The notes below the pieces were generated by a model. The model was not told the DNA's origin. It made no database searches and was given only the letters and a program-made list of their open reading frames with translations. A program made the position numbers and the translations under genes. From Zobellia alginiliquefaciens (GTDB lineage: Bacteria > Bacteroidota > Bacteroidia > Flavobacteriales > Flavobacteriaceae), in NCBI RefSeq assembly GCF_029323795.1, contig NZ_CP119758.1, forward strand, positions 3,224,001-3,288,000: 64,000 nucleotides of DNA. The letters are read 5' to 3'. Below, piece after piece: positions 45,943 to 51,969 of the stretch (positions within the stretch are counted from its first letter, which is position 1; the number at the start of each line of letters is the position of its first letter).

Positions 45943-47199
45943 CTATAATTGAGCAACTTCTTTTTGGCTTTTGATTTTTTTCAATCTATCCAATGCCTCT
46001 ATGTAATAATAATCGGCATAGATTAGTGCAACATCTATTTCTGAACCTAATGATTTTGCACCTGTAGAATGTAATAAAAACGAATTGGCTTTACCAACGC
46101 CTGAATAATTTTCAGAACTTAAAGAGCTTAACATTTTTAAGGCGGCGTTATAATATTTTTGCTTTTGAGTTGTATCCTCTAAAAAGGTGCTGAGCTCTAA
46201 TAAGCCTGAAGCAACAACTGCAGCAGCGGAAGCGTCCCTTTCTTCTTTTTCTAAATTAGGAACGTCGAAATCCCAATATGGAACATAATCCTCAGGTAAA
46301 AGCTCAAGGTATCTGTCCGACAATTTTTGAGCAAAATCCAAGAATTTCTTATCTCCTGTTTCACGATATACCATGCTGAATCCATAAATCCCCCATGCTT
46401 GACCTCTTGACCATCTACTATCATCTGCGTAGCCTTGTTTGGTATGATGGTTCAGCACACTGCCCGTGATGGAATCATATTCTATAACGTGCCAAGATGT
46501 ATAATCATCTCTAAAATGATTTTTCATGGTGGTCTCGGCGTGTTTGATCGCGATATCCTTCAACTCAGAATCTCCTCCGTTCTTAGCAGCCCAAAACAAG
46601 AGCTCTAGGTTCAACATGTTATCGATTATGGTGATATGTTGCTGCCATCTTGGGTGCATCTTGTTAGACCAAGATTTTATTGTGCCTACTTTTGGGTTGT
46701 ACCTCGATACCAATGATTTTGCCGATGTTAACAGAATGTCTTTATACTCTTTTTTGTCTCCTAGCTTATAGCCATTGCCAAATGCAGGAAACATCATAAA
46801 ACCAATATCGTGATGCTCTGTAATTGTTTTATAATCTTCAAAAACTTCAGTTCTTTTAATGGCTTCGGTTTTCCATTTTTCATCTTTGGTCAGGTCGTAC
46901 ATGTACCATAGAATACCGGGGTAAAAGCCCGAGGTCCAAACCAACCTTCCATTGGGAACTTCTTTCCACTCTTTTTCGTTAGTTTCTATAAGTCGTGGGT
47001 GTTTGGTTAGGTCCGTTAATTTTGGAACTGATGTTTCTAATTGAGATTCACAATTATCGATAGCGCTTTCTAAATCAAATGTAGCTATTGTTTCATGGGT
47101 ATTAGACTCGCTATTGGATTTAATTTTTTTAGGTGCGTCATGACAGGCGAAAAGTAAAGAACAAATACTAAAAAGTAGTAGTTTGGTACATTTTGTCAT
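45943..47199 (-). CDS. GH88 unsaturated uronyl hydrolase, lipoprotein, inside the trp operon
   Basis: A protein of 418 residues from the ATG at 47199. A start at 47265 precedes the signal peptide. The lipobox is LLFAC (Cys 19). GH88 marks are [12 protein letters not shown] (catalytic Asp 131) and [15 protein letters not shown] (Asp 193), as well as [19 protein letters not shown]. These enzymes remove the 4,5-unsaturated uronic acid left by polysaccharide lyases (ulvan, glycosaminoglycan and related substrates). There is no lyase, SusC or sulfatase nearby. It is co-oriented with the trp genes, 74 bp from trpF and 37 bp from trpB, so it is probably in the same mRNA. Confidence 0.93.
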
Positions 47200-47273
47200 T
47201 ATATTGGTTTTTGTCAGTAGTAGTTTTCTCTTTTTTGGGTTACTGGTTAGTTTGAGATTGCTCATAAATTTGT

Positions 47274-50404: not shown

Positions 50405-51802
50405 TTATATGGTTTCAGCAATTTTCAATGCTTTGGTCAGTGCGCCCAATTTGTTATAGGTTTCTTGCAATTCGTCTTCGGGGTTTGATGCGGCAACAAG
50501 ACCTGCGCCCGCTTGGTAATTTAACTGGTGGTTTTTGCTCAAGAACGTACGGATCATAATGGCATGGTTGAAATTACCATCAAAATCCATAAAGCCGATG
50601 GCGCCACCATAGTATCCTCTACTGGTTTTTTCATACTTCTCAATAAGCTGCATGGCCATATGTTTTGGTGCGCCGCTTAACGTTCCTGCTGGAAAGGTGT
50701 CCGCAACCACTTTCATGGTAGGCGTATCTTTTTTCTTTTGCCCTACAACTTTTGATACCAGATGAATAACGTGGGAAAAGAACTGTACTTCTCTATAATT
50801 GGTTACCTCTACCAAACTACCGTTTCGGCTTAAATCGTTACGAGCCAAATCTACCAACATTACATGTTCGCTATTTTCCTTGTCGTCTTCTTTAAGTTGT
50901 TTGGCAAGAATGGCATCTTGTTCATCGTTTCCGGTACGTTTAAAGGTTCCGGCGATAGGGTGAATTTCTGCTTTGCCTTCCTTTACAATAAGTTGCGCTT
51001 CAGGAGAACTTCCAAAAATCTTGAAATCGCCGTAGTCAAAATAAAACAAGTAAGGCGATGGATTGATGGAGCGAAGTGCTCGGTACACGTTAAATTCATC
51101 CCCTTTGAATCCTTGAGAAAATCTACGAGATAAAACCAGTTGAAAAACATCACCACGTTGACAGTGTTTTTTAGCTAACCGAACGTGTTCTCTATACTCT
51201 TCATCTTCCAGATTGGAAGTAGCGTCTCCATCCAAAGAGAAATTATAGGAAGCAAAAGTGCGTACGTTTAGAATATGTGCTATTTCAGAGGTGTTTTCAT
51301 CAGTATTAAAACAATGTGCGAAAATATAAGCCTCGTTCTTATGATGGTCTATTGCAATGATGTTTTGGTAGACCGCATAGTAAATATCGGGAATGGAAAT
51401 AGAATTGTCCTTTTTGGTGATTTCTACATCTTCATAGTAGCGCACGGCATCATAGGCCATATAACCAAAAATACCATTGTTAATGAATTTAAAATCGCTT
51501 TCGTCGGCTTCAAATTTTTTGCTGAACTCGTGCAGGACATTTACAACGTCTGTACCTTCGTTTATTTCCGTTTCTTGTGAAGTTTGGTCAGGAAAACGCT
51601 CAATAATCGTTTCGTTCTCTATTTTTATTGATGCAATAGGGTTGCAGCAGATATACGAAAAACTATTGTCGTTAGCGTGATAGTCGCTACTTTCAAGCAA
51701 GATACTATTAGGGAAGCGGTCTCTAATTTTTAGATAAACGCTTACCGGCGTAATGGTATCGGCCAGGATTTTTTTGTGGAATGATTTTAATTTGTACTTC
51801 AT
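50405..51802 (-). CDS. trpE: Anthranilate synthase component I
   Basis: A protein of 465 residues from the ATG at 51802 (MKYKLKSFHKKILAD). A start at 51823 falls in the attenuator hairpin. It converts chorismate and ammonia to anthranilate. The N-terminal feedback-site element LLESSDYHANDNSFSYICC matches the LLES motif that binds Trp. Catalytic region: HPIAGTFKRTGNDEQD, ENSEHVMLVDLARNDLSR and PAGTLSGAPKHMAMQLI. It is regulated by the leader described at 51823-51969. Confidence 0.96.
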   Translation of the reverse strand: MKYKLKSFHKKILADTITPVSVYLKIRDRFPNSILLESSDYHANDNSFSYICCNPIASIKIENETIIERFPDQTSQETEINEGTDVVNVLHEFSKKFEADESDFKFINNGIFGYMAYDAVRYYEDVEITKKDNSISIPDIYYAVYQNIIAIDHHKNEAYIFAHCFNTDENTSEIAHILNVRTFASYNFSLDGDATSNLEDEEYREHVRLAKKHCQRGDVFQLVLSRRFSQGFKGDEFNVYRALRSINPSPYLFYFDYGDFKIFGSSPEAQLIVKEGKAEIHPIAGTFKRTGNDEQDAILAKQLKEDDKENSEHVMLVDLARNDLSRNGSLVEVTNYREVQFFSHVIHLVSKVVGQKKKDTPTMKVVADTFPAGTLSGAPKHMAMQLIEKYEKTSRGYYGGAIGFMDFDGNFNHAIMIRTFLSKNHQLNYQAGAGLVAASNPEDELQETYNKLGALTKALKIAETI

Positions 51803-51822: not shown

Positions 51823-51849
51823 AAAGGCTTGTCGTGATGACAAGCCTTT
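51823..51849 (-). terminator. trp attenuator terminator
   Basis: On the minus strand AAAGGCTTGTC, loop ATCAC, GACAAGCCTTT, then TTTTGCATTT: an 11-bp perfect stem 21 bp ahead of trpE. An alternative antiterminator pairs TCGTGA (51883-51878) with TCACGA (51837-51832), and TAAGC (51875-51871) with GCTTG (51845-51841). This would open the terminator. Confidence 0.85.
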
Positions 51850-51877
51850 ATATAGTTTTACTACAATGATGCTTAGC

Positions 51878-51934
51878 TCACGATATCTGTCGAGAGTTGT
51901 TCCACCACCAAGTATTTGTGTTATTTCTGTTCAT
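51878..51934 (-). CDS. trpL: trp leader peptide with three consecutive Trp codons
   Basis: An 18-codon frame reading MNRNNTNTWWWNNSRQIS and stop. Three TGG codons in a row lie at residues 9-11. A ribosome stalled there would mask the CTCTCGA segment and leave TCGTGAGCTAAGC free to form the antiterminator. A ribosome reaching the stop codon would cover TCGTGA and let the terminator form. The start lies a few bases after the promoter, so the mRNA is nearly leaderless. An in-frame ATG at 51955 lies upstream of the -7 box and is rejected. Confidence 0.9.
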   Translation of the reverse strand: MNRNNTNTWWWNNSRQIS

Positions 51935-51939
51935 TGGCT

Positions 51940-51969
51940 CAAATATAGAAATCATTTTTAAAACCACAA
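51940..51969 (-). promoter_or_regulatory. Canonical Bacteroidota promoter of the trp operon
   Basis: On the minus strand TTG (51969-51967), exactly 19 nt, then TATATTTG (51947-51940), a full match to TTG-N19-TAnnTTTG. The expected start site (about 51936-51934) nearly coincides with the leader ATG at 51934. Confidence 0.85.

Follow-up and report, generated by a model that had tools for sequence, protein, structure and literature searches.

Organization of the trp locus

The window, i.e., the whole stretch of 64,000 nucleotides of Zobellia alginiliquefaciens DNA analysed here, carries the tryptophan biosynthesis genes and their leader on its minus strand. The first gene of the operon is trpE (positions 51802-50405), whose best NCBIfam match is trpE_most at a score below the cut-off of the model. 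It is followed by the co-directional trpG, trpD, trpC, trpF, a GH88-like gene, trpB and trpA (50402-43839). TrpD and TrpC pass the cut-offs of their models and TrpG that of a subfamily model, TrpF matches its own family best at a score below the cut-off, and trpB was named from its PALP domain and its context.

The region upstream of trpE is bordered by a terminator-like hairpin with a T-run (CCCTGCA...TGCAGGG; 52019-51983), which belongs to a YceI-like upstream gene and adjoins the trp promoter. A sub-threshold match to the Rfam family 'trpB' (25 bits for a cut-off of 59) falls on this hairpin and was discarded. The promoter is composed of the TTG of a −33 element (51969-51967) placed 19 nt upstream of a −7 box, TATATTTG (51947-51940), that fits the Bacteroidota σA consensus TAnnTTTG. 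The box is followed by the five nucleotides AGCCA and by the ATG of a short ORF at 51934. This TTG-N19-TATATTTG arrangement with a nearby ATG had been proposed in the original prediction and can be read directly on the minus strand, the spacing being 5 nt. TATATTTG is the sole exact TAnnTTTG box between the terminator of the upstream gene and the leader. A scan for promoters of the σ70 type, the wrong type for this organism, gave two matches where 1.3 are expected by chance and was discarded.

In Flavobacterium johnsoniae, the transcription start is separated from the box by 4 or 5 nt in 241 of 434 candidate promoters, and these 241 candidates were taken as the probable promoters (PMC6847099); in F. 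psychrophilum the box is located at −12 to −5 (PMC9723704). On the basis of these distances, transcription of the leader is predicted to start at A51935 or at the A of the AUG at 51934 (51935-51934), an assignment that also fits a pyrimidine-purine step found at this position. Another ATG in frame with the short ORF is found at 51955-51953, 21 nt upstream of the leader start and before the −7 box.

The predicted leader peptide and the Bacteroid-trp family

The short ORF (51934-51878) is predicted to code for an 18-codon leader peptide, MNRNNTNTWWWNNSRQIS, ending at a TGA codon (51880-51878). It features three tandem Trp codons (51910-51902), the putative sensor, which are conserved in relatives. 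No other start codon was found between 51934 and these codons in the leader of the window.

A match to the Rfam family RF01692 (Bacteroid-trp) extends over 51954-51839, covers the full length of the model (1-131) and scores 51 bits for a gathering cut-off of 49. This element lies directly upstream of the trp biosynthesis genes. RF01692 and tRNAs are the only RNA families that reach their cut-off within the 64-kb window; no covariance-model match to a T-box was found there at gathering score. In other phyla trp genes are controlled by a T-box, a TRAP-like protein, a riboswitch or an sRNA, and a sensor of this kind might operate at the present locus, the short ORF being then incidental. We regard this as very improbable given the Rfam result and the conservation of the tandem Trp codons, present as WWW in 164 of the 168 leaders with an ATG ORF described below and as WW in 12 of the 14 trpE loci listed from genomes missed by Rfam. 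The reading retained here is that of a ribosome-mediated attenuator. Such a trp attenuator is already known in this group: Bacteroid-trp RNA has been tabulated (PMC2864571) and was reported to resemble the E. coli leader and to be conserved upstream of trp in F. psychrophilum (PMC6414381). Attenuation of trp in Bacteroidota is thus not new, a point absent from the original prediction, which did not name RF01692.

The family was surveyed in one genome per species, a match being defined by E ≤ 0.001. RF01692 was found in at least 208 of 299 genomes of the bacterial family (184 over the cut-off), in the nine genomes of the genus examined (eight over the cut-off), and in 27 of 247 genomes of a phylum sample, 26 of them from the same family. 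Among 20 listed genomes of the 91 without a match, 14 have TrpE, and a leader ORF with WW is found upstream of it in 12; one of the two remaining loci is cut by a contig end. The figure of 208 is therefore a lower bound, and the reading of a missing Rfam match as loss of the element was dropped. In five of these genomes (L244, L247, L248, L249 and L250; 1.7-2.2 Mb in size) the leader has WW only and its start codon lies 4-5 nt past a box.

For comparison of the leaders, 150 (L001-L150) of the 208 matches in the family were read, G082 being excluded because of its position at a contig edge. Leader ORFs were searched as ATG-initiated frames of 8-45 codons, WW being required by the search itself. 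Leader calling was applied to 180 loci in all, of which 174 have an ATG ORF; removal of six duplicates from the same genome left 168. The six loci counted at first as devoid of a leader ORF have one that starts with GTG (L055, L118 and L150) or TTG (L069, L080 and L092). The window's own leader is included in the 168, among which the four that do not have WWW have WW. Pairs were counted on an alignment of 49 leaders, obtained by thinning the 168 at a script score of 0.80. The 18-codon peptide with its three Trp codons is found on the minus strand as had been described, and the comparison with relatives proposed as a check of the attenuator finds the Trp codons, the terminator and the antiterminator helices all kept. 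In L049 (genome G001), from the same genus, the leader ORF is four codons shorter (MNRNNVNTWWWNNS), a TGA replacing the CGA of the window. Its TCGTGA and terminator are intact, and a ribosome at this stop codon would sit further away from the segment named region 2 below.

Predicted terminator and antiterminator

A hairpin with an 11-bp stem (AAAGGCTTGTC/GACAAGCCTTT, 51849-51823) and the loop AUCAC (ATCAC in DNA) ends 20 nt before the ATG of trpE at 51802. It is supported by covariation: 98.5% of the cells of the alignment of 49 leaders are paired, five of the 11 pairs change on both sides and none of 500 shuffles is as high on any of five measures. A hairpin followed by a T-rich tail is present in 166 of the 168 leaders, so that a predicted intrinsic terminator precedes trpE. 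The original prediction described the stem correctly and its U-run too generously. The UUUU sequence extends from 51825 to 51822, three of its residues are inside the stem, and it is followed by GCAUUUG. The T runs are longer in many relatives and poor in the genus of the window. RNAalifold applied to the alignment of 49 leaders predicts the terminator alone, as expected since competing helices exclude each other.

The 5′ strand of the putative antiterminator core, TCGTGA (region 2; 51883-51878), spans the end of the peptide ORF and is found in 155 of the 168 leaders. Its 3′ strand, TCACGA (51837-51832), consists of the terminator loop and of the first GA of the terminator 3′ arm. Counted as 7 bp, the core (G)UCGUGA/UCACGA(C) is paired in 88.9% of cells, and counted as 6 bp in 94.2%; the 7-bp figure falls to 8-57% when the two strands are slid relative to each other and is reached by none of 500 shuffles. 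Three pairs of the core change on both sides (6 of 500 shuffles are as high) and its covariation score is above all 500 shuffles, while the number of further pair types in the core does not exceed that of shuffles (396 of 500). The antiterminator had been proposed to comprise 6+5 pairs. The 6-bp part is general among the 49 diverse leaders. The 5-bp part, TAAGC (51875-51871) with GCTTG (51845-51841), is specific to some lineages: 70.2% of its cells are paired and one of its pairs is found in 11 of the 49 leaders, which makes it a local extension. Apart from the U-run and this extent of the antiterminator, the coordinates and the earlier reading of the window were right.

The position of TCGTGA relative to the leader ORF differs between leaders. 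Its start lies 6 nt ahead of the ORF end in 91 of them, 11 nt ahead in 30 and 3 nt past it in 27, and 7 leaders have other registers. Since the TGA is out of frame in the −11 class and the motif is untranslated in the +3 class, TCGTGA is kept as nucleotides. A terminator was called in 166 leaders, and in 157 of these the best duplex between the region downstream from WWW and the top of the terminator is better than in shuffles (p ≤ 0.05). TCGTGA is absent from 13 leaders, 11 of which have a called terminator, and these are informative to different degrees. In L101, L149 and L162 the leader's own loop pairs better than any differing loop from other leaders. In L117, L140 and L180 the pairing is better than with 94-96% of the other loops (91% for L179). 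L039, L116, L141 and L142 have the common loop and provide no information, since 20-22% of other loops do equally well. L101 and L149 represent a compensated exception with a 10-bp pairing, UUGUCGCAAU/AUUGCGACAA. Their region 2 reads TTGTCGCAAT, matching ATTGCGACAA in the terminator, and the arm of the P2 hairpin (see below) reads TTGCGA; the three elements, region 2, terminator and P2 arm, have thus changed together. The proposal that an antiterminator competes with the terminator through the stop-codon region of the peptide is upheld by the conservation of UCGUGA/UCACGA and by the compensation of some of its exceptions.

The E. coli trp antiterminator captures mainly the 5′ arm of its terminator; that of the window would capture the loop together with the first bases of the 3′ arm. 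What is constant in the pairing is the terminator loop itself, and the extension enters the 3′ arm or the 5′ arm according to the lineage: GA or GAC of the 3′ arm is included in most leaders and five of its bases in L101 and L149, and two bases of the 5′ arm are covered in a group with GUGAGA/UCUCAC. These features could also be accounted for by a pseudoknot between UCGUGA and the loop that modulates the formed terminator. Such a function appears improbable, because the pairing enters the terminator stem and the two structures therefore cannot be complete together, and also because in the partial transcripts analysed below the pairing precedes the existence of the 3′ arm. The competing antiterminator is thus preferred.

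Predicted ribosome positions and folding of the leader RNA

Two further helices are predicted upstream of the terminator in the minimum free energy fold. P1, also part of the Rfam consensus structure, pairs 51914-51903, over the Trp codons, with 51871-51859. P2 is a hairpin between CUCUCGA (51896-51890), in the codons past WWW, and UCGUGAG (51883-51877), which includes region 2. In 54 of the 155 leaders P2 exceeds shuffled sequences at p ≤ 0.05; its support from the sequences is considered moderate. The free RNA of the window folds into P1, P2 and the terminator with −30.1 kcal/mol (z = −3.3 against shuffles).

The leading edge of a ribosome lies ~15-18 nt past the first base of its P site. 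With this edge, a ribosome that holds a Trp codon in its A site extends to 51898-51889 and leaves 51883-51878 free; depending on which of the Trp codons is concerned, the 5′ arm of P2 (51896-51890) lies wholly outside the covered RNA, partly inside it or wholly inside it. Region 2 is covered once the ribosome has reached the stop codon. The antiterminator therefore appears to be placed such that a ribosome at the stop codon would block it and one stalled at Trp would not. When folding was computed for a growing RNA considered apart from the polymerase, with everything upstream of 51888 covered, the antiterminator was the structure predicted for 3′ ends 51834-51828 and the terminator appeared only from 51826. 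An antiterminator was obtained in a partial transcript for 39 of 39 leaders, the other ten of the 49 having no TCGTGA or no called terminator. Once the RNA is complete, the stalled ribosome still being in place, the terminator is the more stable of the two structures (−20.8 versus −16.4 kcal/mol for the antiterminator), so that antitermination would have to be kinetic.

Distance between promoter and start codon

The distance between the promoter box and the start codon has a two-peaked distribution in the 150 family leaders, with a sharp peak at 5 nt and a broad one at 16-20 nt. Exact TAnnTTTG boxes are found 5 nt from the start codon in 26 cases, at 4 nt in two, at 6 nt in one and never at 0-3 nt; 26 are at 7-12 nt, 86 at 14-22 nt and 13 further away, up to 52 nt. 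The 5-nt spacing is found in 34 of 174 leaders in all, 31 starting with AUG and three with GUG. It is also found in the nine genomes of the window's genus examined. A TTG at a spacer of 16-22 nt from the box is present in 27 of the 31 leaders with AUG. In half of the 12 leaders from genomes missed by Rfam, a box is followed after 4 or 5 nt by an ATG that shares the frame of WW. As transcription in F. johnsoniae starts mostly 4-5 nt past the box, members of the 5-nt class should have a 5′ leader of 0-1 nt, and the leader mRNA of the window is accordingly predicted to be leaderless. The GTG-initiated L055, L118 and L150 belong to the 5-nt class and would be leaderless GUG starts; in the TTG-initiated L069, L080 and L092 the box is further from the start codon. 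The RF01692 model begins ~20 nt before the start codon, and these positions would correspond in the 5-nt class to promoter DNA rather than to RNA.

The bases past the box point to the same start. In the 5-nt class position +4 is C or T in 33 of 34 leaders, position +5 is A in 25, and a pyrimidine-purine step ending just before or on the first base of the start codon is present in 33. The corresponding numbers in 99 leaders with a spacing of 13-22 nt are 76, 64 and 72. The start codon itself supplies a purine in the 5-nt class, for which reason a stricter figure is needed: where the AUG of a class member is directly preceded by a purine (25 leaders), a pyrimidine comes before this purine in 24, compared with 58 of 73 in the leadered set. 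As judged from these bases, a putative initiator is found at the same distance from the box in both classes, and the start codon lies on it in one only.

It could be argued that the same attenuator is transcribed with a normal leader from a true promoter located further upstream, TATATTTG being fortuitous or secondary. This alternative is favoured by the larger box distance in most of the family's leaders and by the rarity of leaderless mRNAs in flavobacteria (5.5% of F. psychrophilum mRNAs; PMC9723704). According to other published figures, about 3.7% of B. thetaiotaomicron mRNAs have under 10 nt and 87% of those of F. johnsoniae have more than 10 nt (PMC6847099). The in-frame ATG at 51955 is kept in 12 of the 31 AUG leaders of the class, that of the window included (nine in the genus of the window), and in L241; outside the genus it occurs in L022, L111, L147 and L241. 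It is missing, however, from 19 of the 31. Furthermore, the upstream gene ends in the strong terminator-like hairpin at 52019-51983, and from there to the leader no second exact box is found. All nine genomes of the genus examined keep the 5-nt distance, and in 29 of the 31 AUG leaders of the class no exact box other than this one exists within 40 nt. The enrichment of the pyrimidine-purine initiator at +4/+5 from the box in both classes speaks in the same sense. We consequently find a distant promoter unlikely and retain the leaderless transcript. In five of the 31 leaders that combine AUG with the 5-nt spacing, that of the window not among them, a further in-frame ATG or TTG precedes WWW, and translation could start internally.

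A control was made with 464 kb of the window's genome (343 script-called ORFs), using the 212 ORFs with a free upstream region. An exact box is found within 82 nt of 52 of them, 4-6 nt away in three and 13-22 nt away in 19. The pattern TANNTTTGN5ATG is not enriched genome-wide (102 occurrences versus 99 in the reversed control), which gives no support to a general use of the 5-nt arrangement by this genome. The version of the pattern with 3 nt exceeds its control (204 versus 126), indicating that raw pattern counts are no measure of promoters.

Distribution of the class on the TrpE tree

Leaders were placed on a TrpE tree of 99 loci, obtained by a quick search with SH-aLRT supports only. The 4-6 nt class (35 rows) is scattered on it and requires 10 changes, compared with 29.2 in shuffles. 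At least three of the 10 changes are forced by well-supported branches; they may be gains or losses. A group of 29 rows (support 81) includes the genus of the window, and 24 of its rows have the 4-6 nt spacing. Groups of the class placed elsewhere are formed by L013, L032, L059 and L068 (support 81) and by L079, L115, L133, L136 and L144 (support 89), and the class members L087 and L179 are on long branches. The 36 leadered rows are in other groups of the tree. In a bolder scenario, to which we give an even chance, the flavobacterial trp sensor would have been repeatedly moved to the exact 5′ end of the RNA and held there by selection. Were it true, attenuation in these leaders would depend on leaderless initiation, 5′-terminal GUG included, and would be convergent with that of Streptomyces and Sinorhizobium (see below). 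The first ribosome could then load once the 5′ end leaves the RNA polymerase, which would suit the timing of attenuation.

Proposed mechanism and relation to known attenuators

The leader of the window is probably a ribosome-mediated Bacteroid-trp attenuator with a peptide translated from a leaderless RNA. We observe the ORF, the box of the promoter, competing pairings that are conserved and a promoter-to-start distance with two peaks, and we infer the transcription start, translation of the peptide, termination and the response to tryptophan. Transcription would start at 51935 or 51934, yielding an RNA that begins with A-AUG or AUG, and a ribosome would initiate at this 5′ end to read the 18 codons. 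With ample Trp-tRNA it would reach the UGA at 51880 and cover UCGUGA, allowing formation of the terminator and a stop of transcription before trpE. When Trp-tRNA is scarce the ribosome would stall at codons 9-11, covering the 5′ arm of P2 and thereby leaving region 2 free. Region 2 would then pair with UCACGA as soon as it emerges, occupying the loop of the terminator and the beginning of its 3′ arm. The terminator would be prevented and RNA polymerase would enter trpE and the following genes. In the absence of a ribosome, P1 and P2 would hide region 2 and the terminator would form.

Several known systems share parts of this organization. Bacteroid-trp RF01692 is the same element, with Trp codons in the P1/P2 stem-loop upstream of trp genes in Bacteroidota; unlike the window's leader as described here, its consensus has neither the terminator nor the antiterminator pairing. 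The Trp-rich leader peptide and the pause/antiterminator/terminator logic are common to the window and to the E. coli trp attenuator (PMC6414381), and in both a ribosome at the stop codon would favour termination. The window differs from E. coli by three tandem Trp codons and by having no room for a Shine-Dalgarno leader. The predicted leaderless start resembles that of the alphaproteobacterium Sinorhizobium meliloti, where the attenuated RNA rnTrpL begins with the ATG of trpL; the 14-amino acid peptide peTrpL is reported to have functions in trans, and none is known for the peptide of the window (PMC7298713). The actinobacterium Streptomyces lividans, in which 17% of transcripts are leaderless, has upstream of trpE an 18-amino acid WWW leader peptide, TrpL1, transcribed as a leaderless RNA, with termination that is seemingly Rho-independent (PMC8079986). 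By eye, the likeness between TrpL1 and the peptide of the window is seen only in WWW. These reports, which the original prediction did not mention, place leaderless Trp leaders in two other phyla, to which Bacteroidota would now be added. Within the same bacterial family, attenuation by leader peptides was proposed for 5′ elements of amino-acid operons in F. psychrophilum, pheA and hisG elements being named (PMC9723704).

A literature search that covered mainly open main texts returned no description of a leaderless Bacteroid-trp class. The predicted subclass thus appears undescribed, together with the sharpness of its spacing, its scatter over the tree and its putative GUG members. It would offer a small, conserved example of leaderless translation in a phylum for which such mRNAs are reported to be rare, where initiation without Shine-Dalgarno sequences is still being worked out, and whose flavobacterial mRNAs are otherwise mostly leadered and Shine-Dalgarno-free. 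The Rfam family gains a terminator and an antiterminator supported by covariation. As related lineages are found with and without a leader, they offer a comparison of the speed of ribosome loading that attenuation needs.

The GH88-like gene (45943-47265, minus strand), located between trpF and trpB, may be under the same attenuator. It has weak matches to glycosyl hydrolase families 88, 76 and 47; that to GH88 (24.6 bits) is below the cut-off of 26.6 and that to GH47 (23.2 bits) is just over the cut-off of 22.9.
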